A stretch of DNA of 51,480 bases. Source: Candidatus Cloacimonadota bacterium (GTDB taxonomy: Bacteria > Cloacimonadota > Cloacimonadia > Cloacimonadales > TCS61). The stretch spans positions 1 through 51,480 of the forward strand of contig JAIPGP010000017.1 of NCBI GenBank assembly GCA_021735645.1, read 5' to 3'. Under the pieces are notes generated by a model. The model had not been told where the DNA came from. It was given only the letters and a program-made list of their open reading frames with translations, and searched no databases. How positions within the stretch are numbered: position 1 is the stretch's first letter; each line of letters opens with the position of its first letter. The position numbers were made by a program, and so were the translations under genes. Positions 27,235-42,119 of this stretch are shown here, one piece after another.

Positions 27235-28275
27235 TTGAAGAAGATTTCACTAACACAATACGTAAAAGCAGCCGGCTGAGCAGCTAAGCTAAGTCCGGGG
27301 GACTTACATAAATTGATGCAGGGTTTACAACTACCCTCAAATGAGCAATTGCTTCTGGGTTCCGGCAGCAGTGATGATGCCGGTATTTATAGACTCAATG
27401 CGGAGCAGGCACTTGTGCAGACCCTTGATGTGATCACGCCGGTGGTGGATGATCCTTTTGTATTTGGTCAAATAGCAGCAGCAAACAGCATGAGTGATAT
27501 TTGGGCGATGGGTGGCACAATGCACACAGCCTTGAATTTTGTGGCTTATGATAATTGCCATCTCACTTTGGAGATATTACGTGAAATACTGGCAGGCGGG
27601 GCAGCAAAAGTGAAGGAAGCCGGGGGCGTGATATTAGGTGGACATACTATTGAAGATGCCGAGATGAAATATGGTTTGAGCGTGACCGGCATCGTGCATC
27701 CTGACAGATATCTGCGGAATAATACCACACAGCCAGGCGACATTCTCATCCTCACCAAGCCTTTGGGTATGGGCGTGATATCTACTGCTATCAAAGGTGA
27801 AATGGCTGATGAGGCAACTATTAAAGAAGCAGCATTTCAGATGAGTTTTTTAAATAAATATGCATCCGAAGTGGCAATACGGGTTGGAGTGAATGCCATG
27901 ACTGATGTAACCGGTTTTGGCTTAATGGGTCATCTGAATGAAATGACAGGAGAGCATACTTCCATCGAGCTGGAATACAGCAGAATCCCCACAATAAAAT
28001 CAGCCTATGATCTGGCTGAGTATGGATTATTCCCTGCTGGAGCGTATAGAAATGAAGAATATTATGGTCAATTCTGCCAGATAGAGATTGAACTGGCAGA
28101 CAGCCATAAGATGCTGCTGTTTGATCCTCAAACATCTGGCGGGTTACTGCTGAGCGTGAGAGAAGCTAAGGCAGAGCAGCTTATTAAGGAACTACTCGAT
28201 GCTGGAATTGAGCATTCACGCATTATCGGTAATGTGATCCCGAAAGAGGCATACAATATAAAACTCAGGAGCTGA
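27235..28275 (+). CDS. selD: Selenide, water dikinase, itself a selenoprotein (UGA at residue 15)
   Basis: A 346-residue enzyme making selenophosphate from selenide and ATP for selenocysteine and selenouridine synthesis. The frame opens at TTG 27235 after GGAGG and reads through an in-frame TGA at 27277-27279. It gives MKKISLTQYVKAAG-U-AAKLSPGDLHKL, matching the SelD active-site motif where Cys or Sec is followed by (G/A)AK. The essential Lys is residue 18. Downstream are GSSDDAGIY, DVITPVVDDP, NSMSDIWAMG, GGHTIED and FDPQTSGG, all SelD landmarks. A start at 27313-27316 would lose the catalytic residues. A SECIS-like hairpin follows the TGA. It is the first gene of a long operon; the GH31 gene starts one base after its stop. 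Confidence 0.93.
27290..27306 (+). promoter_or_regulatory. SECIS-like hairpin in selD
   Basis: A perfect 7-bp stem TAAGTCC/GGACTTA (27290-27296 with 27300-27306) has the loop GGG. It begins 10 bases after the in-frame TGA, and the loop is 17 bases after it. Bacterial SECIS elements lie within the coding region just after UGA and need an apical loop with G residues for SelB. Position and shape fit; SelB itself is not in this window. Confidence 0.75.
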
Positions 28276-28276
28276 G

Positions 28277-30418
28277 ATGAAATCATACCGTTTTGGCAAT
28301 CCCTTTTCAACCGGAGCAGTAATTGAGAAGCCGGTAAAATTTCTGCAAATAGACGAATTGCCTGGATTTAAGCTGACTAAATCCTCTGCTTCTGTTATAT
28401 TGCGTTACCGCATGCAAAAAGATGATATTGTGATAGGACTGGGTGAGCAACTGGGTGGGATCAATAAACGTGGCAGGAAATATATAACTTATAATACTGA
28501 TATACCGGAGCATACGCCAGATAAACTTTCGCTGTACGGCTCACACCCATTTATAATTATCCAGGGCAGGTATAATGAGGGGCTTTTTATTGATTATCCG
28601 GGAGAAATCAGCTTTGATGTGGGTTTTTCTGATAAAGATATTCTGGAAATAACAGTAGGTTCAGCCGATTTTGATCTGTATCACTGGCAGGATAACCGCT
28701 GGCAGGATATTGTAACCAGTTATCTGGAACTTACCGGTGGCGTGTATGTGCCGCCTAAGTGGGCATTTGGCTATCAGCAGTGCCGGTGGAGCTACCCGGA
28801 AGCGAAGTCAGTAGAGGAAGTAGCAAATAAGTTCAGACAGCTTGGTATTCCCTGTGATGCCATCTATCTTGATATTGATTATATGCAGGATTATAAGGTC
28901 TTCACGGTTAATGAGGAGAGGTTTCCTGATTTTGGCAGATTCGTGAAAGAATTGAGAGATAAAGGTTTTCACCTGATCCCGATCATTGACCCGGGGGTGA
29001 AAATTGAGTCTGATTATCCTGTATATGAAGAGGGCAAAAAGCATAAATATTTCTGCACTGATGAGCAGGGAGAAGATTTTCAGGCAGCAGTGTGGCCAGG
29101 GCTTACGCATCTGCCGGACTTTAGTAATGCCGCAACCCGTAACTGGTGGGGCAATTTATATAAGAAGTTTATTGAGCTGGGGATTGAAGGATTCTGGAAT
29201 GATATGAATGAGCCGGCAATCTTTTATACAAATTACCAGCAGCAGGGTGTATATGATAAATTGCAGGCAGCAGCAGATAACAAGGCATTAGATAAAGTTG
29301 ATTTGATCGGATTACAGTGGCAGATACGCAATTTTCATAACAGCCGGGAAGACTATCAGAGCATCTATCAGCATCCTGAAAGAGACAAAACAGTCTGTCA
29401 TGATCAAATTCATAATCTTTATGGTGCTCAAATGGCGCAGTCTTTTTCAGAAAGCGTGCAGCAGAGTTATCCTGATAAGCGTTTCCTGATATTCAGCCGC
29501 AGCAGTTACAGCGGTTCACAGCGTTTCGGCGGTATCTGGTATGGAGATAATAAGAGCTGGTGGGAGCATCTAGAGCTGAATATAAAAATGCTGATAAACT
29601 GCAACCTGGTGGGTTACTTTTACAGTGGGGCGGATATTGGCGGATTTGGCGACAACTGCCAGGCGGAGCTGCTGATCCGCTGGCTGCAACTGGGTGTATT
29701 TAGTCCCCTGTTCCGTAATCATTCCGCTATTCATACCAGGAGACAAGAGCTTTGGGAATTTGATAAAGCCACCATGAATCAGGCACGTAAAATTATCCGG
29801 CTGCGTTATGCACTTCTGCCCTGGCTCTATTCCCAGTTTCTGGAATTTGCCAGTATGAATATTCCGCTTATCCAGTCATTAAGCTGGAGTTTTTCAGAAC
29901 CCCGCTGCCGGGAAATAGAAGACCAGTTAATCTATGGCGGCAGCCTGATGATCGCTCCGGTATATAAGCCCAATGTCAGTGGCAGAATGGTGTATCTTCC
30001 GCAGGATAAATGGCTGCTGTGGTGGGCAGGCAGTTGGGAAGACCGCAAAATGAAAGTACTTGCCGCTGGTGATCATTTTATAGAATGTCCACTGGATAGA
30101 CAATTGATCTTTATCAAAGAAAATACTCTGATAACAATGCAGGAACCGGAAGATTATGTAGATCAGCGTAAACCTGATACCCTGTTTATCATTGGACTTG
30201 TCAGCTCAACTGCTCAGGTGAAAGTTCTGGTGGATCAGGGAAAATATCCCGCCTTTGCCGGTATGGCTGTGCTGGATATTACGATGGTGAAACAGGAAAA
30301 AAACTATGAAATTGAGATAAAAACAGTAAATAGAGAATTATTGCAATGGCAGCAACTGGTATTTGAACTTTACAACGATCAAGGCAACCTGACAATTTTA
30401 CATAGAAAACTGATATAA
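28277..30418 (+). CDS. GH31 family alpha-glycosidase
   Basis: A 713-residue enzyme of glycoside hydrolase family 31, probably cytoplasmic because no signal peptide is seen. An N-terminal galactose-mutarotase-like beta domain (about 1-150) precedes the TIM barrel. The nucleophile is Asp309 in WNDMNEP and the likely acid/base is Asp453 in GADIGGF. RSSYSGSQRFGGIWYGDN, typical of alpha-glucosidases, is at about 408-425. The C-terminal beta domains run from about 560 to 713. The substrate is likely an alpha-glucoside or alpha-xyloside; sequence alone does not decide. It starts one base after selD and nine bases before the next gene. Confidence 0.93.
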   Translation: MKSYRFGNPFSTGAVIEKPVKFLQIDELPGFKLTKSSASVILRYRMQKDDIVIGLGEQLGGINKRGRKYITYNTDIPEHTPDKLSLYGSHPFIIIQGRYNEGLFIDYPGEISFDVGFSDKDILEITVGSADFDLYHWQDNRWQDIVTSYLELTGGVYVPPKWAFGYQQCRWSYPEAKSVEEVANKFRQLGIPCDAIYLDIDYMQDYKVFTVNEERFPDFGRFVKELRDKGFHLIPIIDPGVKIESDYPVYEEGKKHKYFCTDEQGEDFQAAVWPGLTHLPDFSNAATRNWWGNLYKKFIELGIEGFWNDMNEPAIFYTNYQQQGVYDKLQAAADNKALDKVDLIGLQWQIRNFHNSREDYQSIYQHPERDKTVCHDQIHNLYGAQMAQSFSESVQQSYPDKRFLIFSRSSYSGSQRFGGIWYGDNKSWWEHLELNIKMLINCNLVGYFYSGADIGGFGDNCQAELLIRWLQLGVFSPLFRNHSAIHTRRQELWEFDKATMNQARKIIRLRYALLPWLYSQFLEFASMNIPLIQSLSWSFSEPRCREIEDQLIYGGSLMIAPVYKPNVSGRMVYLPQDKWLLWWAGSWEDRKMKVLAAGDHFIECPLDRQLIFIKENTLITMQEPEDYVDQRKPDTLFIIGLVSSTAQVKVLVDQGKYPAFAGMAVLDITMVKQEKNYEIEIKTVNRELLQWQQLVFELYNDQGNLTILHRKLI

Positions 30419-30427
30419 AGAGGAAAG

Positions 30428-33010
30428 ATGAGAAAATTATTTATTCTGCTTATTTTATTAACCCTAACTAATAGTATTTTTGCTGAGTTGAATACTGATC
30501 GTATCTCGCGATATGCCGGGAAAAATGCTGATGAACTGCTGGAACTCCTGCAAACAACACCTGCAGATACCCTGGAATATCTGGAATTCATTTTAGAGAA
30601 TTGTGCAGCAACAGATTTAGCAATCCTCAGGTCAGATTATCTGATGGATAATATCCGCTATGCCCTTAAATCGCAGGAATTTGCTTATACGGCAGGTTAT
30701 GATAAATCTATTTTTCTGCATTTCGTGCTGCCGCATCGTATGTCTCAAGAACCTTTAGAAGACTGGAGACCTGCCTATTACAAAGAACTGAAACCGCTGG
30801 TGGAAAACCTGGAAACAATCGAGGAAGCAGCTATAAAAGTAAATATCTGGTGCCTGGAGCAGATGACCTATAAGCCTACGCACGGCAGAGACCAGAGTGC
30901 TTTCACCTCGGCAAAACGAGGATATGGCCGCTGTGAAGAAATGATGATCATCTATATGTGTGCTGCTCGAGCAGTGGGAATCCCGGTGAGAAGCTGTTCT
31001 GCTCCTTACTGGAATTTCACTGACAGCAATCATGCCTGGATAGAAGTATGGACGCCGAACGGCTGGAAATATCTGGGAGAACCAGCCAGTTCATTAAGCA
31101 AAACCTGGTTTACAAACACTACTCAAAGAGCAACGCTGATCACCGCCAAAGCTTTTGGTAATTATGAGCATAAAAACAGTATCAAGCAGGAAGACAATGT
31201 AACCACTCTCAGCTCAATAGAGTATTACACAGACAGTTACCAGTGCCATATCAAAGTGATAGACCAGTCAGGGGAAGCGGCTAAGGAAGTTACAGTAATG
31301 CCAATGGCAGTGTCATTTGGCGGGATCTGGCAGATGACAGACATGACAACGGATATAAATGGGGAGTGTATGATCCCTCTGGGCAAGGGTAGCACTTTGA
31401 TCATGGCAGGTAAAGACAGTCTTTGTGCCTGGCAAATGGTTACGAACCTGGATGGTGAAGACCGGTATCTAAGCCTTACTTTAAGTGATGATAACACTAT
31501 TGATGAAGATTTCAGTTTTCTATTTCCACTGCCAAATTCCAATCCGCGAGATAATGAAGAACCCGTATTCTGGGCAGAAACTTTTGACTTGATGCGTGAG
31601 AATGCTGATCTGAAAAGGAAAAACCGCTTGAACTCCCAGAAACAGACAGCCGAATTTGCCAGATATTATGATCAGGTGAAAACTGCTGAAAACCGGGATG
31701 ACGAATATTATGACAGCTGGAAGACCTGGCTGGATAAAGCCGATGAACTGGCAGCGAATGCGGATGATTTCCTGCATGTCTTAGGACAGGAATCTGAAAG
31801 TGGTCAATGGGTAATCACTGAGATGATAGATACCTGGGATATCAAGGACTTATGTGAAATACCGGATTCACTGGCTTTACGCGATATTGTGAATATCTTT
31901 ACCGCTAGCCGCAGCCGCTTTGGTTTACCTGACACACTTTTCTCACAAGGCTGTATTACCCGAACCTGGAGATCGGCAAGTCCGGTGCAAGATGGCTGGC
32001 AGGCTGAGTTTTATCAGAATATCGTTCCACTTATTGATAATGAACTGGAAACTACTGTACAGAATATTTATAACTGGATACAGGAATCCACTGAAATAGA
32101 GGAAGATTTCGTCTGGACATATTATTCCAGTTCAATCACGCCTCCTGAAATACTCAACCTGCATTATATTCCGGAATTTTATCAGACCAAGCTGCTGAAT
32201 ACCAGCCTGAAACTTGCTGGCATCCCTGTCCGCTGGGAAGGACAACTGGAATATTACAACGGTTCTGACTGGCTGCCTGCACCCAGTAGTGCTGCTGAGG
32301 AAGAAACCAGCAGTGAACTGAGGAATTTTACTTTGAGGATTTTTGTGGATGGAGTGGAAGTGAAAGCTGAACCTTATGAGAACTTTCTGGTTGCCAGCTT
32401 GAATGCGGACGGCTACCTCTACCCCACCTGGTTCGATGGTGAAAATGATTCTTTACTTTATAAAGGCAAGTACCGGGTTACTGATGCCGAAACCATTCAT
32501 ATTGAAGCTGCTGTCCGTAATAGCAATGGTGATGCTACTGTGGCAATCCGCTCACTTACGCAAGCAGAACAGGAAATCAAGCTTGATATGACCACTCCCA
32601 AAGAATATCTGGATATGAGCACAAACTGGCAGGAAACTACTCTGGAAGCAGTGCGTAACATCGTAACCGAAAATCCTTTTGCAGGCAAGAAGATAGTTAT
32701 GATCCGCGGCAGGAAAAGCAGTGAACCGGAAAATCATACTACCAGATTCCTGCAGGAAAAGCTGGCAAAATTTACTGAGCTGAACGCCCGGCTTTATATC
32801 TATTCAGAAAAACGCTCTATCAGAGACCTGAACGGTAATAAAGACCTTATTGACGCTATCCTGTTAGATGGCAAACCGATATTAGAAAATGAACTGGCTG
32901 CTGAAAACTATCCGGCTCTATTTGTGCTGGATGAAGAGAATAATCTGATCTTCTCTACAACTGGTTATAATATGGGTATTGCTGATCTCATCATAAAGAA
33001 ACTAAAATAA
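30428..33010 (+). CDS. Exported transglutaminase-like protein with thioredoxin-like end
   Basis: An 860-residue protein with a signal peptide (1-19, ending FAE). Residues about 130-225 form a transglutaminase/protease-like core with Cys169 (GRCEE) and His202 (SNHAWIEVW). The third catalytic residue is not obvious: GEPASS replaces the usual Asp context. Residues about 495-620 look like a second, degenerate copy without Cys and His (YNWIQESTEIEEDF, KLAGIPVRWEG). The last about 130 residues look thioredoxin-fold-like (KKIVMIRGRKS, PALFVLDEENNLIFSTTGYN) but lack CxxC. Such periplasmic proteins may be peptidases rather than cross-linkers. It is third in the selD operon. Confidence 0.8.
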   Translation: MRKLFILLILLTLTNSIFAELNTDRISRYAGKNADELLELLQTTPADTLEYLEFILENCAATDLAILRSDYLMDNIRYALKSQEFAYTAGYDKSIFLHFVLPHRMSQEPLEDWRPAYYKELKPLVENLETIEEAAIKVNIWCLEQMTYKPTHGRDQSAFTSAKRGYGRCEEMMIIYMCAARAVGIPVRSCSAPYWNFTDSNHAWIEVWTPNGWKYLGEPASSLSKTWFTNTTQRATLITAKAFGNYEHKNSIKQEDNVTTLSSIEYYTDSYQCHIKVIDQSGEAAKEVTVMPMAVSFGGIWQMTDMTTDINGECMIPLGKGSTLIMAGKDSLCAWQMVTNLDGEDRYLSLTLSDDNTIDEDFSFLFPLPNSNPRDNEEPVFWAETFDLMRENADLKRKNRLNSQKQTAEFARYYDQVKTAENRDDEYYDSWKTWLDKADELAANADDFLHVLGQESESGQWVITEMIDTWDIKDLCEIPDSLALRDIVNIFTASRSRFGLPDTLFSQGCITRTWRSASPVQDGWQAEFYQNIVPLIDNELETTVQNIYNWIQESTEIEEDFVWTYYSSSITPPEILNLHYIPEFYQTKLLNTSLKLAGIPVRWEGQLEYYNGSDWLPAPSSAAEEETSSELRNFTLRIFVDGVEVKAEPYENFLVASLNADGYLYPTWFDGENDSLLYKGKYRVTDAETIHIEAAVRNSNGDATVAIRSLTQAEQEIKLDMTTPKEYLDMSTNWQETTLEAVRNIVTENPFAGKKIVMIRGRKSSEPENHTTRFLQEKLAKFTELNARLYIYSEKRSIRDLNGNKDLIDAILLDGKPILENELAAENYPALFVLDEENNLIFSTTGYNMGIADLIIKKLK

Positions 33011-33013
33011 AAC

Positions 33014-34021
33014 ATGAATTCCAGAGAAAGAATCACGAGGATTTTAGCAGGTGAAAAAGCTGACCGCTGTGGCTTCTGGCTGGGAAATCCCCATCCTGAT
33101 TCCTGGGCTGGACTGCATGATTACTTTGGCACTTCTACCGAGGAAGAACTGCGTTTGCTTCTGAAAGACGATTTCCGCTGGATATGTCCCTGGAACGCGT
33201 ATCAGCATCCGGAAGGCAAACCGGTATTTGACATGCAAAGACCCGGGAAAACCCTTTCTGAAGGTGGTGTGTTTGCTGATACCATCAACATTGATGAAGT
33301 GGAAAGTTTTAACTGGCCCCAACCGGAATATCTGGATTTTACTGGCTATAAAGAAACTCTGGAAAATGCGGGTGATTTCTATCGGGCTGGTGGATTGTGG
33401 AGTCCCTTTTTCCATGAAGCCTGTGATATCTTTGGCATGGAAAACTATTTTCTGAAAATGTACACTCATCCTGAAGTAGTACATGCCGTTACGCAGCACT
33501 TGATAGACTATTATCTGGCAGCAAACAGACTCTGTTTTGAAGAATGCGGGGATTTGATAGACGGCTTCTTCTTTGGAAATGATTTTGGCAGCCAGCATGA
33601 TATCCTGGTTAGTCCTGCCCTTTTTACTGAGTTTATTTATCCCTATTTCAGGAAGTTAACAGAATTAGGAAAGGAATATCATAAACAGATAATTCTGCAT
33701 TCATGCGGCTCTATCTTTCGCGTGATGAATGATCTGATTGCTTTGGGGGTAGATGCTTTTCATCCCCTGCAGGCAAAGGCAGCTGATATGGACGCCGATA
33801 CACTTAAGCAGCATTTCTCCGGTAAAGTTGCCTTTATTGGAGCTATCGATACTCAGGATTTACTTGTGAACGGCTCACCGGATGACGTGATAAAAGAAGT
33901 AAATAGAATAAAAAGCGTGCTGGGCCCTTCTGTAGTGATAAGTCCCAGCCACGAAGCTCTTCTGCCTGATGTACCGCCCCGGAATATAGAAGCTATGGCA
34001 AAAGCAGTTGCAGGAAAATAA
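33014..34021 (+). CDS. URO-D superfamily methyltransferase, substrate-side candidate
   Basis: A 335-residue TIM-barrel protein of the uroporphyrinogen decarboxylase superfamily, in the branch used as cobamide-dependent methyltransferases. It starts SRERITRILAGEKADR, has the metal-type motif ILHSCGS, then GVDAFHPLQAKAADMD, FIGAIDTQ and SPSHEALLPDVPP. The last motif has His where MtaA-like enzymes have the third zinc-ligand Cys. True heme-pathway HemE is unlikely because its N-terminal FMRQAGRY-type substrate motif is absent. It is immediately followed by a corrinoid protein gene (two bases), so it probably demethylates an unknown methyl donor onto that protein. Confidence 0.85.
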   Translation: MNSRERITRILAGEKADRCGFWLGNPHPDSWAGLHDYFGTSTEEELRLLLKDDFRWICPWNAYQHPEGKPVFDMQRPGKTLSEGGVFADTINIDEVESFNWPQPEYLDFTGYKETLENAGDFYRAGGLWSPFFHEACDIFGMENYFLKMYTHPEVVHAVTQHLIDYYLAANRLCFEECGDLIDGFFFGNDFGSQHDILVSPALFTEFIYPYFRKLTELGKEYHKQIILHSCGSIFRVMNDLIALGVDAFHPLQAKAADMDADTLKQHFSGKVAFIGAIDTQDLLVNGSPDDVIKEVNRIKSVLGPSVVISPSHEALLPDVPPRNIEAMAKAVAGK

Positions 34022-34023
34022 AA

Positions 34024-34704
34024 ATGGCAGGAGAGTTAATGGAAAGATTACTGTTTGATCTGAGTATAGCAATTGAGCGTGGTAAAGAAAATGAAACATC
34101 ACCTTATCCCCCTGATCTAAAGGGAAAACCGGGAGCTTATGAATTCACCTCCCGGCTTCTGGAAATGAATTGTCCACCGGATACTATACTAAAACAGGGT
34201 ATGATGCCGGGTATGGACAGGATTGGTAAAAAGTTTGCTGATGGCATAGTTTTTATCCCCGAGATACTGATCGCTGCCAAAGCTATGAAAGCTGCCATGA
34301 CACTGTTGAAACCCTATTTTGACAATGGTGCAGTACTCCGAAAAGGCAAGGTTATCATTGGTACAGTTGCCGGGGATCTGCATGATATTGGAAAAAATAT
34401 TGTGTGCATGGTGCTGGAAGGAGCCGGCTGGGAAGTATTTGATCTGGGAGTGGATGTGACCAAAGAAAAGTTTCTGGCTTCTCTAAATGAGCACCCGGAA
34501 AGCATTATCTGCATGAGTGCTCTACTCACTACTACTATGAGAGAAATGGAGAAATCCGTTACTACTATTAAGCAGGCATTCCCCCAGACAAAAATCTATC
34601 TCGGTGGAGCTCCACTAACCAGTGATTTTGCTGATAAAATCGGTGCTGACGGCTATTTTCCTGATCCTCATAGTCTGTCAAAGCACTTGACAGGCAATTT
34701 ATGA
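34024..34704 (+). CDS. Corrinoid (B12-binding) methyl-carrier protein
   Basis: A 226-residue protein of the MtaC/MtbC/MttC type. Residues about 1-105 form the helical cap domain (MPGMDRIGKKFADG..FIPEIL). Residues about 108-226 are the Rossmann-like B12 domain with Asp118-x-His120-x-x-Gly123, where His120 is the lower cobalt ligand, and YLGGAPLT near the end. It would shuttle a methyl group between two methyltransferases. An in-frame ATG at 34039, preceded by AGGAG, is an alternative start. It overlaps the next gene by four bases (ATGA). This cassette context is the strongest clue to function. Confidence 0.93.
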   Translation: MAGELMERLLFDLSIAIERGKENETSPYPPDLKGKPGAYEFTSRLLEMNCPPDTILKQGMMPGMDRIGKKFADGIVFIPEILIAAKAMKAAMTLLKPYFDNGAVLRKGKVIIGTVAGDLHDIGKNIVCMVLEGAGWEVFDLGVDVTKEKFLASLNEHPESIICMSALLTTTMREMEKSVTTIKQAFPQTKIYLGGAPLTSDFADKIGADGYFPDPHSLSKHLTGNL

Positions 34705-35399
34705 TAAATAAAACTTTCAGATTCTCAACAGAGAGTCTGCTGCCTGATATTTCTCTTATCCTCATTGAGATGGGGTATAGTATCCCTCTGGCAGATCATT
34801 ATCTTTCTGACTTGATCAATGACACTCTGCAGCAGGTGAGGAAACATACTAGGGTTCAGGCTGGATTTATCATGCTGCCCAAAGATTCCATCAAAACCCA
34901 GTCTAACATCCTGTTTGAAAATAGATTGCTGTTTGAGCCGGGCAGTATAATAATGAGCCAGCTCCAGAACGTCACTTCGCTGGCAGTATTCCTTGCCACA
35001 CTCGGCAGTGATTTTGATCTCTGGATAAAATTCGTTCAGCAGATAGATATGCTTCAAGCTTTCGTGATAGATACTATCGGTTCATTGATGGTGGAAAAAG
35101 CCGTAGACCTGCTGGAAGAACAGATTTCTATGCAGGCAATGATCCGGGCTGAAAAATGTACTAACCGCTTCAGTCCCGGCTACTGCCAATGGCTGGTAGA
35201 TGAGCAGCATCAGCTTTTTCATCTCCTGCCAGCCGATTTTGACTGGGTAAAATTGCAGCCTTCTTGTCTGATGACACCTTTAAAGAGTATAAGCGGTATT
35301 ATCGGATTAGGCAAAAATGTAATAAAAATTCCTTATCATTGTGCCTTCTGTGATAATAAAAGCTGCTACAGACGCCTGAAAAACCGGAAAGGACAATAA
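34701..35399 (+). CDS. MetH activation-domain-like protein, probable corrinoid reactivase
   Basis: A 232-residue protein resembling the SAM-binding activation domain of cobalamin-dependent methionine synthase. Supporting motifs are FLATLGSDFDLW (about 93-104), DTIGSLMVEKAVDLLEE (about 119-135) and RFSPGYCQWLVDEQ (about 155-168), the last being the classic SAM-contact motif. The C-terminus adds CAFCDNKSC, a Cys cluster that may hold metal. Stand-alone versions next to corrinoid proteins are thought to rescue inactive Co(II) by reductive methylation with SAM. It is translationally coupled on both sides (ATGA and TAATG overlaps). No RamA-type ATP-dependent reactivase is present. Confidence 0.8.
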   Translation: MINKTFRFSTESLLPDISLILIEMGYSIPLADHYLSDLINDTLQQVRKHTRVQAGFIMLPKDSIKTQSNILFENRLLFEPGSIIMSQLQNVTSLAVFLATLGSDFDLWIKFVQQIDMLQAFVIDTIGSLMVEKAVDLLEEQISMQAMIRAEKCTNRFSPGYCQWLVDEQHQLFHLLPADFDWVKLQPSCLMTPLKSISGIIGLGKNVIKIPYHCAFCDNKSCYRRLKNRKGQ

Positions 35400-36412
35400 T
35401 GCTAAAAAAACTTATCAGGGATCAATACCTGAAACGCAAGAGGATAATTGCTCCATTGATGGGCTACATCGGTCTCCAGTACACAGCCAGTGCAAAACTT
35501 AAAGCCCAACTGGAGCACACTGCTCATTATGATACTATCATGGCTCTGGTAGATAATTTTCAGCCGGATATCGTCTTTCCGCTGATGGACCTTTCTCGCG
35601 AAGTGCATGCCTTAGGCAGGAAATCAGTTTTTCATGCTATCCCACTCAAAGCAGAAATTGCCGGAGATTATTCTCCCCGGCTGCTGGCTCAATTAGAGAA
35701 ACGAGAACTGCTTGATTCCGCCAGACTGACTGAATATCTGCTTACTTTGCAGCATCTCAGTAAATCAATTTCAAATGATCAGATTCTCTGTGCCTATCTC
35801 TGTGGCCCGATATCTTTTGCCGGCATGGTGATGGGTATAGATAAACTGGCTCTCGCATTGCTGCTTAATCCCGAATCTGTACATGATCTGCTCAAGGTTT
35901 GCCAGACAAAACTTGCTGACCTGATCCCTCATCTGAAAGAAGCTGGCGCTCAGGCAATATGTTTCCTGGAGCCAACTGCCAGTCTGCTTTCTCCTGATCA
36001 GGCGCAGGAATTTTCTCTGGATTATCTCTCTCCTCTCATTTTCACCAGCCAGAACCTGAATCTAGATACTGTCCTGCATATTTGCGGTAATACAAAGCCA
36101 ATCCTGCCGCAAATGGCAGCCACCAGTGCAGATGTTCTCTCTCTCGATTCACCGCATACCGGTATCTGCCTGCCTGCATTGATAGAAGACCTCTCCACTC
36201 AAATCATCCTGATGGGTAACCTGAATCCTACAGGTTTAATACTCACCGGCAATGCAGCAGATATAAAAAAAGAAGTAAATACCCTGCTTACTGATCTGAA
36301 GAATTATCCTGATTTCATTCTCAGCACTGGCTGTGACCTGCCGGAAAGCACTCCTCTGGCTAATATCCGCGCTTTATTTCATACCGCCAGGGAATATAAT
36401 AATTATGAATAA
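35399..36412 (+). CDS. MtaA-like URO-D superfamily methyltransferase, acceptor-side candidate
   Basis: A 337-residue URO-D-fold protein, only distantly like the one at 33014. It has AYLCGPISFAGMVMG, the zinc motif VLHICGN and a third Cys in STGCDLPESTPLANI. His-x-Cys...Cys is the zinc set of MtaA/MtbA, which transfer methyl from corrinoid protein to a thiol such as coenzyme M. By analogy this could be the second methyltransferase of the cassette, with an unknown acceptor (thiol or tetrahydrofolate). It starts on the stop codon of the activation protein and overlaps the transporter gene by 8 bases. Confidence 0.83.
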   Translation: MLKKLIRDQYLKRKRIIAPLMGYIGLQYTASAKLKAQLEHTAHYDTIMALVDNFQPDIVFPLMDLSREVHALGRKSVFHAIPLKAEIAGDYSPRLLAQLEKRELLDSARLTEYLLTLQHLSKSISNDQILCAYLCGPISFAGMVMGIDKLALALLLNPESVHDLLKVCQTKLADLIPHLKEAGAQAICFLEPTASLLSPDQAQEFSLDYLSPLIFTSQNLNLDTVLHICGNTKPILPQMAATSADVLSLDSPHTGICLPALIEDLSTQIILMGNLNPTGLILTGNAADIKKEVNTLLTDLKNYPDFILSTGCDLPESTPLANIRALFHTAREYNNYE

Positions 36413-37277
36413 AGACCTTCTGAAGGGGAATCTGATGGGAATAACTGCTTACCTGATGTGGGGATTCCTGGCTGTTTACTGGAAACTAATCGTTCAAGTT
36501 CCACCCATGGAGATACTGGCTCACAGAATAATCTGGAGTCTGGGATTCATTATCATAATACTGGTTCTTAAAAAGAACTGGAAATGGCTGGATATTCTCA
36601 AGAAGCAACCCAGATTCTGGCTCTTGTATCTGCTTAGCTCCCTGCTGGTAAGCGCTAACTGGTTTACCTATATCTGGGCGGTCAATAATGCCCATACTGT
36701 TGATGCCAGCCTGGGTTATTTCATCAATCCCCTCTTCAGTGTTCTACTGGGGGTGGTTTTCCTGAAAGAGAAACTCGCTAAGCCAGAGAAAATAGCTGTA
36801 GTGCTCGCTCTTATCGGAGTGATCTTTCTCACAGTATATTATCGCAGCCTGCCTTGGGTTGCTATTGTACTCACTATCACTTTCGGACTATATGGTCTTA
36901 TCAAGAAACAGGGTCCTTTGGATGGCATCCAAAGTCTGGGACTGGAAACAGCAATCATTTTCCTGCCAACTCTGTTTTATCTTATTCATCTGGAGAATTC
37001 TGCTCAGTCAGCCTTTCTGCACAGCAGCCTGCTCACCAGTACACTGCTCATTACTGCAGGTATTGTCACAGCCACTCCTCTTCTTCTTTTTGGACAGGCT
37101 GCCCGTAAAATCCCCCTCTCTACTCTCGGTTTCCTCCAGTATCTGGCTCCCACTTTCCAGTTCCTGATTGGCGTTTTTGTCTTCAAAGAGTTATTTGAAG
37201 TCCCAAAATTAATTGGATTCTCCATTATCTGGTCTGCTTTGATTATTTTCTCGCTTTCTCGTTTCTCAAGACATTAA
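36405..37277 (+). CDS. rarD: RarD-type EamA family transporter
   Basis: A 290-residue inner-membrane protein with ten hydrophobic segments. N-terminal landmarks of RarD are present: KGNLMGITAYLMWGFLAVYWK, EILAHRIIWS, NWFTYIWAVNNAHTVDASLGYFI (split here) and NPLFSVLLGV. The C-terminal half contains QYLAPTFQFLIGVFVFKE. RarD proteins belong to the drug/metabolite superfamily; substrates are unproven. ATG at 36405 is used because it aligns with the family N-terminus; a TTG or other start further upstream would lie inside the previous gene. It is the last gene of the operon and could export or import the methyl substrate, which is an inference. Confidence 0.85.
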   Translation: MNKDLLKGNLMGITAYLMWGFLAVYWKLIVQVPPMEILAHRIIWSLGFIIIILVLKKNWKWLDILKKQPRFWLLYLLSSLLVSANWFTYIWAVNNAHTVDASLGYFINPLFSVLLGVVFLKEKLAKPEKIAVVLALIGVIFLTVYYRSLPWVAIVLTITFGLYGLIKKQGPLDGIQSLGLETAIIFLPTLFYLIHLENSAQSAFLHSSLLTSTLLITAGIVTATPLLLFGQAARKIPLSTLGFLQYLAPTFQFLIGVFVFKELFEVPKLIGFSIIWSALIIFSLSRFSRH

Positions 37278-40582: not shown

Positions 40583-40644
40583 CAAAACCCTACTGCCTGA
40601 AGGCTGGAGTGGGGACTATAAGACTATAAGACGATTTGACTTCG

Positions 40645-40716
40645 CATCGTCCCATCGTCCCATCTTCCCATCTTCGCATCTTCCCATCGTCACATCTTCC
40701 CATCTTCCCATCGTCG
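40645..40716. repeat. Period-8 array, nine units (first)
   Basis: Nine consecutive 8-base units of the type CATCGTCC or CATCTTCC, with variation mainly at unit positions 5 and 8. Directly before it, 40614-40637 contains three further 8-base units (GACTATAA twice, GACGATTT). The tract is non-coding and lies between the Cache-PAS gene and the primase gene. On the minus strand the unit reads GGACGATG. Confidence 0.85.
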
Positions 40717-40788
40717 ATTCCCCCATCCCTAGTCTTGGATTACATTACACTTAATTTTCAATTTTCAATTTTCAATTATCCCCCCCCC

Positions 40789-40860
40789 AATCGTCCCATC
40801 GTCCCATCGTCACATCGTCGCATCGTCACATCGTCACATCGTCGCATCTTCTTATCTTCG
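40789..40860. repeat. Period-8 array, nine units (second)
   Basis: Again nine 8-base units (AATCGTCC, CATCGTCC, CATCGTCA, CATCGTCG and variants). It is separated from the first array by 72 bases that include a period-7 AATTTTC run (about 40752-40777) and a C-tract. It ends ten bases before the stop codon of the minus-strand primase gene. No spacer-like sequence is present, so this is not a CRISPR array. Confidence 0.85.
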
Positions 40861-40869
40861 CCCCCAACC

Positions 40870-42072
40870 CTACCCTGCAAGACCAACACCTCTCACACTT
40901 GCAATCACTTCTCCAAAGTCTTTAAATCCACTTCCCAGCCCTGCTTTCAAGCAATAATCATCCACAGTAAAAGCATCTTCCCCAGCTTTCACCAGCGCAT
41001 CCACTGCCTTCCTGCCAGCCTTATCACTATCAAGCAAAAACCGGTATTTTCTCCTTCGAGCATAACCCATCTGACCCAGATAGTTATCAAGCTTATCAGC
41101 CCTGGCATTTCCAACCCCGCAACAGGCTATCACCTTGTCATCGCCTGTTATCATATTATAGGCTAAGGCATCTATCTCACCTTCCACAACTGTCAATTTA
41201 TCACTATCAGGGTTCAAACAATAAAAATGCTTGGCTTTACCCAGCAGACTGTTATATTTTTGACCCTTGTAACCGGGATACTTACGCTGGTTCACATAAA
41301 CTATCTCATCACCAAGCCAGTAAAATATCAGCAGTCCCTTATCAAAAAAGATTAAATTCTTTTTGTAGTATAAGAGCCCTGCATGATCAAGCTGCTCATC
41401 ACTAAACTCACTTTTTAGCAGGCATTCCACCTTAGCAATATTGTCAATCGACCCAATTCTTGACTTCTTAATCAGCTCAGCATTAAAACCCCGCTCATCA
41501 ACCAGATATTTCCGACCTTCTTCGCTCAATCCGCATATCGTATAAAGCCGCTTATAAATCCGCATATCATCATCATTGACGGCATATTGTATTTGTCGCC
41601 CCCTCCCCCCTTCGCCTCTTCGCCCCTTCGTTTCTTCGTCTCCTGTCTCTTCCTCTTTTCTCCCCCCCACCCCTTCACCCAGTCTCCTCCTCGACTCTTC
41701 TACTCTTCCCCCCTTCGATTCTTGCAAGACTTCCCGATTTCCACTCCGATAATTCAATAATTCACCCGGCAACCCGCTCAGATACTTGTCCCCTAATATC
41801 TTCGCTGCCTCATTCAAACTGCAATTCTCTTGTAATCGCACAAAATCAAGCACACTACCCCCAGCTCCACAGCCAAAACATTTAAACATATTTCTTTGAG
41901 TGTCAATACTCATGGATGGCGTTTTATCTTCATGAAATGGACAGCACACCATCTGTTTATCCACATTTCTATTGAGTTCGATCCCATAATCTCTCAGAAT
42001 ATCAGCCAACCTCACCTGCTGCTTAATCAATCTATAATCATATCTCTTATCATATTCCCTATTATTTGGCAT
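40870..42072 (-). CDS. CHC2-TOPRIM primase of a mobile element
   Basis: A 400-residue DnaG-like primase. The zinc finger is Cys44, His47, Cys65, Cys68 (CPFHEDKTPSMS, then CFGCGAGGS). A charged Gly/Glu/Arg linker spans 117-159. The TOPRIM core has LTVVEGEIDALAYN with the catalytic Glu and FLLDSDKAGRKAV with DxD. It is much shorter than chromosomal DnaG and lacks the helicase-binding C-terminus. ATG 42072 is chosen because AGGAGG lies four bases upstream. It follows the helicase gene after 60 bases containing complementary hairpin sequences around its start codon. It probably primes replication of the element. Confidence 0.9.
   Translation of the reverse strand: MPNNREYDKRYDYRLIKQQVRLADILRDYGIELNRNVDKQMVCCPFHEDKTPSMSIDTQRNMFKCFGCGAGGSVLDFVRLQENCSLNEAAKILGDKYLSGLPGELLNYRSGNREVLQESKGGRVEESRRRLGEGVGGRKEEETGDEETKGRRGEGGRGRQIQYAVNDDDMRIYKRLYTICGLSEEGRKYLVDERGFNAELIKKSRIGSIDNIAKVECLLKSEFSDEQLDHAGLLYYKKNLIFFDKGLLIFYWLGDEIVYVNQRKYPGYKGQKYNSLLGKAKHFYCLNPDSDKLTVVEGEIDALAYNMITGDDKVIACCGVGNARADKLDNYLGQMGYARRRKYRFLLDSDKAGRKAVDALVKAGEDAFTVDDYCLKAGLGSGFKDFGEVIASVRGVGLAG
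41596..41724. repeat. Period-8 tract inside the primase coding region
   Basis: On the plus strand successive 8-base units read TTCGCCTC, TTCGCCCC, TTCGTTTC and TTCGTCTC, with further degenerate units such as CTCTTCTA and CTCTTCCC. The tract encodes residues about 117-159 of the primase, between zinc finger and TOPRIM. Because 8 is not a multiple of 3, the units are read in rotating frames, giving a mixed Gly/Glu/Arg linker. Confidence 0.7.
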
Positions 42073-42119
42073 AATGCCTCCTGTAATTTGTAAGGCGCAG
42101 GGCATTATGCCCCACGCCT
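42068..42119 (-). promoter_or_regulatory. Possible RNA switch over the primase start codon
   Basis: In the minus-strand transcript, an upstream hairpin (42093-42119) pairs AGGCG with CGCCT and GGGCAT with ATGCCC. Its core GGCATAATGCC is fully complementary to GGCATTATGCC at 42068-42078, which contains the primase ATG and the end of its AGGAGG site. The transcript can thus form either the upstream hairpin, leaving the start free, or an 11-bp duplex covering the start codon. Confidence 0.45.

Follow-up and report, generated by a model that had tools for sequence, protein, structure and literature searches.

A four-gene corrinoid methyl-transfer cassette in a Cloacimonadota genome, possibly serving O-demethylation of a methylated sugar

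We describe a cassette of four same-strand open reading frames (33014 to 36412, forward strand) in a Cloacimonadota-type MAG, within the 51,480-nucleotide stretch of DNA that was analyzed (the window), which very probably demethylates some compound, loading the methyl groups onto a B12 protein and from there onto a sulfur compound. Our preferred explanation, with a probability of roughly 0.4, is corrinoid-dependent O-demethylation of a methylated sugar, in which protein U1, the carrier CP and protein U2 would relay methyl groups to a thiol and SAM would be used for reactivation. What can be read from the sequence is the gene set, the motifs for corrinoid and metal binding, the conserved gene order, the co-occurrence with a GH31 gene and the missing methionine-synthase and Ram genes.

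The cassette encodes U1, a URO-D-fold protein proposed as the donor-side methyltransferase (MTI; 33014..34021, +); CP, a stand-alone corrinoid carrier protein (34024..34704, +); AE, a stand-alone reactivase resembling the MetH activation domain (34701..35399, +); and U2, a URO-D-fold protein proposed as the acceptor-side, thiol methyltransferase (MTII; 35399..36412, +). The intergenic gaps are +2, -4 (ATGA) and -1 (TAATG). An earlier interpretation made without database searches (the sequence-only reading) had placed a four-gene corrinoid methyl-transfer cassette here, with genes overlapping or within three bases of each other, and the frames, their packing, the gene set and the motifs all agree with it. 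The complete cassette is present in another genus and also in a congener, there with one additional URO-D gene. Two URO-D methyltransferases remain co-encoded with CP in genomes G015 and G001, and gene-order conservation, which the earlier reading had proposed as a check, held in another genus. The order GH31-transglutaminase-U1-CP-AE-U2 is kept in G015; in G001 it is split over two contigs. The cassette is real and not a product of chance, because 80 U1 orthologs keep H229, C231 and G232 and the gene order is conserved in another genus. RarD was rejected as a cassette member: its gene and U2 share 8 bases in the window, yet it does not lie downstream in G015. No riboswitch was found in the window.

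CP matched the Pfam B12-binding and B12-binding_2 models with 85.3 and 55.3 bits and carries the DxHxxG...SxL...GG corrinoid motifs as DLHDIG at 118, SALLTTT at 165 and GG at 194. AE passed the Pfam Met_synt_B12 model (PF02965) marginally, with 27.4 bits at a cut-off of 25, matched the methionine synthase activation chain 1j6r in the PDB (phmmer, E 8e-7), and contains the RxxPGY motif, as RFSPGYC at 156, together with a C-terminal CxxCxxxxC. We take 1j6r to be TM0269, which Huang reportedly found in 2007 to be needed for MetH reactivation. No Ram/RACo protein (PF14574) was detected anywhere in the genome, and AE probably uses SAM to reactivate CP, in keeping with the SAM-based rather than RamA-based repair anticipated earlier. 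Catabolic corrinoid systems are normally described with ATP-driven Ram/RACo, and the cassette hints that such systems can also work with a SAM-dependent reactivase of the MetH type.

The two URO-D proteins are distinct methyltransferases, as had been expected. U2 scored 149.7 bits against Pfam URO-D, 113.6 bits against NF004889 (CoM-methyltransferase subfamily), 98.3 bits against TIGR01463 (MtaA/CmuA subfamily; under the 235.4 cut-off) and 50 bits against HemE (cut-off 302.95), with 4ay7 as its best PDB sequence match. Its HICG at 227 and TGCD at 310 supply the MtaA-type His-Cys-Cys set that the sequence-only reading had recognized; its structure model was poor (pLDDT 58.5) and was set aside. 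U1 scored 81.7 bits against Pfam URO-D and 60.5 bits against TIGR01463 (again under 235.4), without a match to the HemE model at its cut-off of 302.95 bits. A HemE identity was therefore rejected for both proteins, and these scores, together with the CP motifs, bear out the two points on which the earlier reading had staked itself, that the URO-D proteins are not both HemE and that the carrier is a corrinoid protein. CmuA and haloarchaeal HemE, rather than MtaA, MtbA or OdmB, served as references in the URO-D comparison.

U1 carries the motifs H229-S-C231-G and P311-S-H313-E314, with H229, C231 and H313 as predicted metal ligands and E314 adjacent. The motifs had been read correctly as HxC and PSHxxxPDVPP except for the spacing, since four residues, not three, separate PSH from PDVPP (PSHEALLPDVPP). 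Across 80 orthologs H229, C231 and G232 are invariant, H313 is near-invariant, and further aromatic and polar residues are invariant; this HSCG/SPSHE family is highly conserved and spread over many phyla. The predicted structure of U1 (pLDDT 93.6) has as its best PDB fold match 4ay8, the M. mazei methylcobalamin:CoM methyltransferase (E 1.3e-13), and the U1 profile, searched against PDB sequences at E up to 1, matched only MtbA and UROD and no O-demethylase. By an argument from PMC10418091, a non-Cys third ligand, as in U1, would suit an oxygen donor, and His-Cys-Cys, as in U2, a thiol. About 76 of the 80 orthologs have neither CP nor AE in the flank examined and no conserved neighbor, and U1 may therefore act with a different partner, or in a different role, in those genomes; an ortholog does lie inside two CP clusters and close to one more. 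A fixed U1 neighborhood across phyla was sought and rejected: the operonic neighbors are mixed, comprising several sugar-type families, whose hint of a sugar link is suggestive only, as well as general transporters and desaturases.

Families were searched across the genome one by one. MetF, MetH, MetE and PF02574 (HcyMT) were not found in the three cassette genomes, and PF01717, which covers core MetE and the folate-independent MesA-D, is absent from the genome. Because the former four and Ram/RACo are absent, a thiol fits better than folate as the acceptor. The sequence-only reading had allowed for either; a thiol is the likelier of the two, and folate is unlikely given the lack of MetF in the cassette genomes, in searches that covered MetF, MetH, MetE and PF02574. 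De novo methionine synthesis was rejected, as the PF01053 search gave weak cross-hits only and no true enzyme, and homocysteine would therefore come from recycling alone.

The earlier reading had overlooked the GH31 gene upstream and the sugar genes around related clusters. A GH31 alpha-glycosidase (MalA-like; 28277..30418, +) lies in the same directon, separated from U1 by an 860-aa transglutaminase-core protein (30428..33010, +) whose position is kept in G015 and G001. Among 40 relatives, orthologs of this GH31 gene occur in all three cassette genomes and in none of the other 37; these three genomes are kin, two of them sharing a genus, so that the co-occurrence represents two independent events at best. 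It also counts against a sugar substrate that the window has a single glycosidase, with neither a sugar kinase nor an isomerase next to it. The closest CP+AE+URO-D clusters elsewhere, in Calditrichota, Ignavibacteriota and Bacteroidota, hold a ribokinase or xylulokinase and RbsD or a lyxose isomerase, some with GH31 and a U2-like gene. The closest AE/CP relatives also adjoin a XylA-like protein, GH31/GH2/GH78-like proteins and URO-D proteins (three of them in G135 and G125), and U2-like genes lie near the clusters in G140 and G125. Peptoclostridium acidaminophilum has a sugar ABC-DUF4091-CP-U2-like-AE-like array, in which the CP and U2-like genes are EAL2_RS12845 and RS12850. No sugar genes were seen in the inspected regions of seven MttB- or HcyMT-type AE loci. 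Given that sugar-degrading genes surround the relatives from other phyla, the substrate may be a methylated sugar.

We chart the following model, in which we infer the direction of transfer, the sugar donor, the thiol acceptor and the use of SAM by AE. In a three-component corrinoid methyltransferase system carrying its own reactivase, the co-inherited GH31 glycosidase would release a methylated sugar; U1 (His-Cys-His) would demethylate what is most likely a sugar methyl ether, with the Co(I) of CP receiving the methyl group; U2 (His-Cys-Cys) would transfer the methyl of methyl-CP to a thiol, for which SAM-cycle homocysteine is the likeliest candidate and some other thiol the alternative; and AE would repair oxidized cobalt by reductive methylation with SAM, as MetH does. 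Against a sugar-ether donor stands the chemistry of the leaving group, as alkoxides depart less readily than phenolates. With a slightly lower probability, oxygen-independent corrinoid demethylation of O-methylated sugars may extend across Cloacimonadota, Calditrichota, Ignavibacteriota, Bacteroidota and Verrucomicrobiota, which are mostly anaerobic, with the HSCG/SPSHE URO-D protein as demethylase and a SAM-type stand-alone reactivase replacing Ram. Glycans of plants, algae and microbes commonly carry methyl ethers on their sugars, and the demethylation of such sugars, to our knowledge, uses oxygen. For example, 6-O-methyl-D-galactose is demethylated by an oxygen-using cytochrome P450 (PMC10033563), and a text search of the literature found no anaerobic counterpart. 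If true, the model would assign a role to a large and conserved URO-D family that has none so far, and would reveal the fate of sugar methyl groups in anaerobes.

It is unlikely that the cassette instead recycles methyl-sulfur or methyl-selenium compounds, as a version, lacking Ram, of the type I mlp gene clusters described by Kountz and Balskus. These are defined by at least two Mlps and a corrinoid protein in the same direction within 2 kb and require Ram (PMC10418091); in a comparison of layout, the two URO-D proteins and CP show this arrangement, and U2 has the His-Cys-Cys set, but the genome has no Ram protein and U1 lacks the third Cys. The directon is headed by selD (27277..28275, +), probably a selenoprotein with Sec at TGA 27277-27279 and its true start further upstream. 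However, selD occurs in 33 of the 40 relatives irrespective of the cassette, and where cassette-free relatives were inspected other genes come after it, so its linkage is background; a selenium function argued from that linkage was rejected on these grounds, and the cassette is tracked by GH31, not by selenium genes.

Similarly improbable is that folate-independent methionine regeneration comes foremost, the cassette's task being to methylate homocysteine, whatever the donor, which would be secondary. The missing MetH, MetE, PF02574 and MetF speak for it, as does AE, which normally serves methionine synthases and adjoins homocysteine methyltransferase genes in P. acidaminophilum, R. albus and C. 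difficile plasmids. In several related genomes the companions of AE and CP are MttB and a homocysteine methyltransferase of PF02574, so U1 and U2 may replace these one for one. Yet many related genomes lack every methionine synthase searched for anyway, PF01053 indicates no de novo homocysteine pathway, and in G018 and G045 a U2-like gene stands alone, with no CP. In G135 and G140, which have CP/AE/URO-D clusters, the AE profile also matched within long frames of MetH size, so methionine need not come from the cassette in these two.

It is doubtful that the cassette demethylates methoxy-aromatic (lignin-type) compounds in the manner of VdmB, OdmB or MtvB, with U1 as MTI coupled to a thiol MTII: U1 shares the URO-D fold and could form a pocket from its invariant aromatic and polar residues, but those systems rely on an ATP-driven activase and, as MTII, on a folate methyltransferase, whereas the MTII here is MtaA-like, no folate methyltransferase was seen among the four cassette genes and no RACo or MetF in the genome, the U1 profile matched no O-demethylase and several neighbors in relatives are sugar genes.

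Among known systems, those closest to U1 are VdmB, OdmB, MtvB, MtoB and CdmB, URO-D-fold donor enzymes for O-demethylation or halomethanes that work with a co-encoded corrinoid protein (PMC13222342). Because these are themselves URO-D proteins, the absence of MttB, MtaB and MtmB, which the sequence-only reading had taken to indicate an unusual donor, is not telling. U1 differs in its own zinc-like set, HSC...PSHE, and the cassette in having neither a folate MTII nor an ATP-driven activase. Type I mlp clusters likewise combine at least two URO-D methyltransferases with a corrinoid protein and no folate methyltransferase nearby (PMC10418091); here a MetH-type activation protein replaces Ram, the context is sugar-type and U1 lacks His-Cys-Cys. 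U2 resembles MtaA and MtbA in its URO-D fold, its His-x-Cys...Cys set and its best model and PDB matches, but it scores far under the curated cut-offs (235-600 bits), is bacterial and is paired with AE and U1, and CoM is an unlikely acceptor. MttB-AE-CP-HcyMT cassettes of other Cloacimonadota (L110-L116) have homologous, adjacent AE and CP, with MttB and PF02574 methyltransferases replacing U1 and U2 and no sugar genes seen. Finally, AE recalls the split methionine synthase TM0268/TM0269 of Thermotoga maritima through its match to 1j6r, although its partner is a stand-alone CP and it carries the extra C-terminal CxxCxxxxC.

Gene calls place four plus-strand genes at 33014-36412 in the window (contig C134 of a 3.77 Mb genome that is 95% complete), spaced by +2, -4 and -1 bases. 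Profile scores identify them as a URO-D protein (U1, 81.7 bits), a corrinoid carrier protein (CP, 85.3 and 55.3 bits), a stand-alone MetH-activation-like protein (AE, 27.4 bits, barely above the cut-off of 25) and a second URO-D protein (U2, 149.7 bits), the same anatomy that a sequence-only reading had proposed. The assignment of AE is backed by a match to PDB chain 1j6r (E 8e-7), and we put corrinoid methyl transfer with repair by AE at a probability of about 0.9. Upstream in the same directon lie selD, a GH31 gene and a transglutaminase-core gene (spacing 1, 9 and 3 bases). An in-frame TGA at the active site of SelD (27277-27279; AAG-TGA-AAK), also kept in G015, a genome of another genus, probably makes SelD a selenoprotein and its host a user of selenocysteine. 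Downstream, a RarD/EamA transporter gene (36405-37277) shares 8 bases with the end of U2 and is not kept behind the G015 cassette; further on, a primase-like gene (40636-42105) has low-complexity repeats inside its reading frame, and the minus-strand genes after it may be a mobile element.

HemE is ruled out for U1, which has zero match to the HemE model, and is set aside for U2, which scores 50 bits against HemE versus 113.6 bits for the CoM-methyltransferase subfamily; membership of the curated MtaA, MtbA or CmuA families is not reached, all of U2's scores lying far under the curated cut-offs. The predicted structure of U1 (pLDDT 93.6) has as its nearest fold the M. mazei methylcobalamin:CoM methyltransferase 4ay8 (E 1.3e-13), followed by UROD and then MetE. 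Its putative ligand set is H229-x-C231 plus H313 at the position of the others' Cys, with E314 directly following, while that of U2 would be H-x-C...C; across the window U1 and 80 orthologs, H229, C231 and G232 never vary, and S310, P311, S312, H313 and E314 almost never do. A third URO-D protein of the same genome (contig C74, locus L118, 7843-8604) has the motif HSDG and close kin in genomes G001, G002 and G015; by eye, its gene lies near a DAHP-synthase-like gene here and in G002.

Following the ligand reasoning of Kountz and Balskus (PMC10418091), U1 would activate a methyl-ether oxygen through its non-Cys third ligand and methylate Co(I)-CP, U2 would move the methyl group onto a thiol through its thiol-type site, and AE would regenerate Co(I) through SAM-dependent methylation, a role modelled on TM0269 as referenced in PMC7857596. 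U1 probably serves the donor side and U2 the acceptor side. The earlier argument that the donor is unusual, for want of MttB, MtaB and MtmB, fails, as known O-demethylases and CdmB are themselves URO-D-fold donor-side methyltransferases (PMC13222342).

Family searches of the own genome, its congener G001 and G015 found no PF02574, PF01717, MetF or RACo, and no PF02965 besides AE (the G015 AE falls under the PF02965 threshold, yet is recovered by protein search). The absence of RACo, an ATP-driven corrinoid activase, together with the MetH-activation match of AE, supports the proposed SAM-based repair. Because MetF and the other searched families are absent, methyl-folate is an unlikely destination, PF00809 and CODH/ACS lying outside the families searched; of the two acceptors first suggested, thiol is thus favoured and folate disfavoured. 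Homocysteine is a tentative candidate for that thiol; a PF01053 search gave weak cross-hits only, and homocysteine would therefore need to derive from SAH recycling.

The complete cassette is present in the own genome, in G001 and in G015 (locus L090, a MAG named Candidatus Cloacimonadota, U1 ortholog 78% identical). On the strength of that ortholog the window is assigned to Cloacimonadota. In G001 the cassette is interrupted by contig ends, and a fifth gene (L108, 1996-3120) between U1 and CP encodes a URO-D protein with HWDG in place of HxCG. AE-like proteins occur in 11/125 genomes of the phylum. In other Cloacimonadota, AE and CP adjoin MttB and a PF02574 homocysteine methyltransferase, so that, as read from sequence, the AE/CP pair is a module combined with different methyltransferases. 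This MttB-AE-CP-homocysteine methyltransferase cassette is conserved at L110, L111, L112, L113, L114, L115 and L116, is followed by a CBS-domain gene in several of them, and is likely a folate-free methionine regenerator fed by a methylated amine. AE proteins of the URO-D and MttB types alike have a cysteine within SPGYC and end in a C-terminal CxxCxxxxC motif (AE alignment A2; window AE at 34701-35399), both missing from the plain MetH partner L117; these cysteines may form a metal or Fe-S site in the corrinoid reactivase. U1 alone is much more widespread (80 loci kept, many phyla, about 47-78% identity); most of these loci have no CP or AE inside the fetched flank, and no common neighbour gene was found among the 80.

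An ortholog of the window's GH31 gene occurs in 3/3 cassette genomes and in no other of 40 relatives, compared with 33/40 for selD; the random-label chance of this match is 1e-4, with two of the three genomes congeneric and hence one or two independent events. We also sought AE in 50 genomes carrying U1 orthologs, and the four closest AE outside Cloacimonadota all belonged to clusters that combine CP and URO-D proteins with sugar genes: ribokinase, D-ribose pyranase and a GH31 alpha-xylosidase-like enzyme in G135; ribokinase and a lyxose-isomerase-like protein in both G140 and G148; and a xylulokinase-like FGGY kinase, a lyxose-isomerase-like fragment, a XylA-like protein and a GH31 alpha-xylosidase-like enzyme in G125 (the G125 fragment, the XylA-like protein and the GH2-like and GH78-like neighbours were identified by eye from sequence, without profile search). 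Near the G135 cluster, about 2.6 kb past its GH31 end, a further U1 ortholog is encoded on the opposite strand; U2-like genes bearing H-x-C...C occur close to the G140 and G125 clusters and group with the window U2 in a tree (support 89). Among the U1 loci, L025 combines CP, ribokinase, two URO-Ds, lyxose isomerase and the U1 ortholog, and L083 CP, the U1 ortholog, a URO-D and a fucosidase-like gene. In seven control AE loci of the MttB/HcyMT type, no sugar kinase, isomerase or glycosidase was seen in the stretches inspected. A sugar may be the methyl donor, at slightly under even odds. Cultured Peptoclostridium acidaminophilum offers a test case at hand: directly behind genes for a sugar ABC transporter and a DUF4091 gene, it has CP, a URO-D resembling U2, and an AE-like protein whose annotation reads 'hypothetical' (L210, 4332-6619; EAL2_RS12845-RS12855). 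On Subdoligranulum variabile plasmid 4 (L214), several URO-D proteins stand, by eye, amid apparent glycan-degradation and sugar-transport genes, a U2-like one adjoining a RACo-like gene.

The open-licence literature searched yielded no description of sugar demethylation by a corrinoid system, an absence that is weak evidence. Although it would work alike, the cassette is not classed as a type I mlp gene cluster, because that definition calls for Ram. What is new here is a corrinoid system of putative donor-side methyltransferase, carrier and putative acceptor-side methyltransferase that has a URO-D pair, a MetH-type reactivase replacing Ram, and a link to glycan genes.
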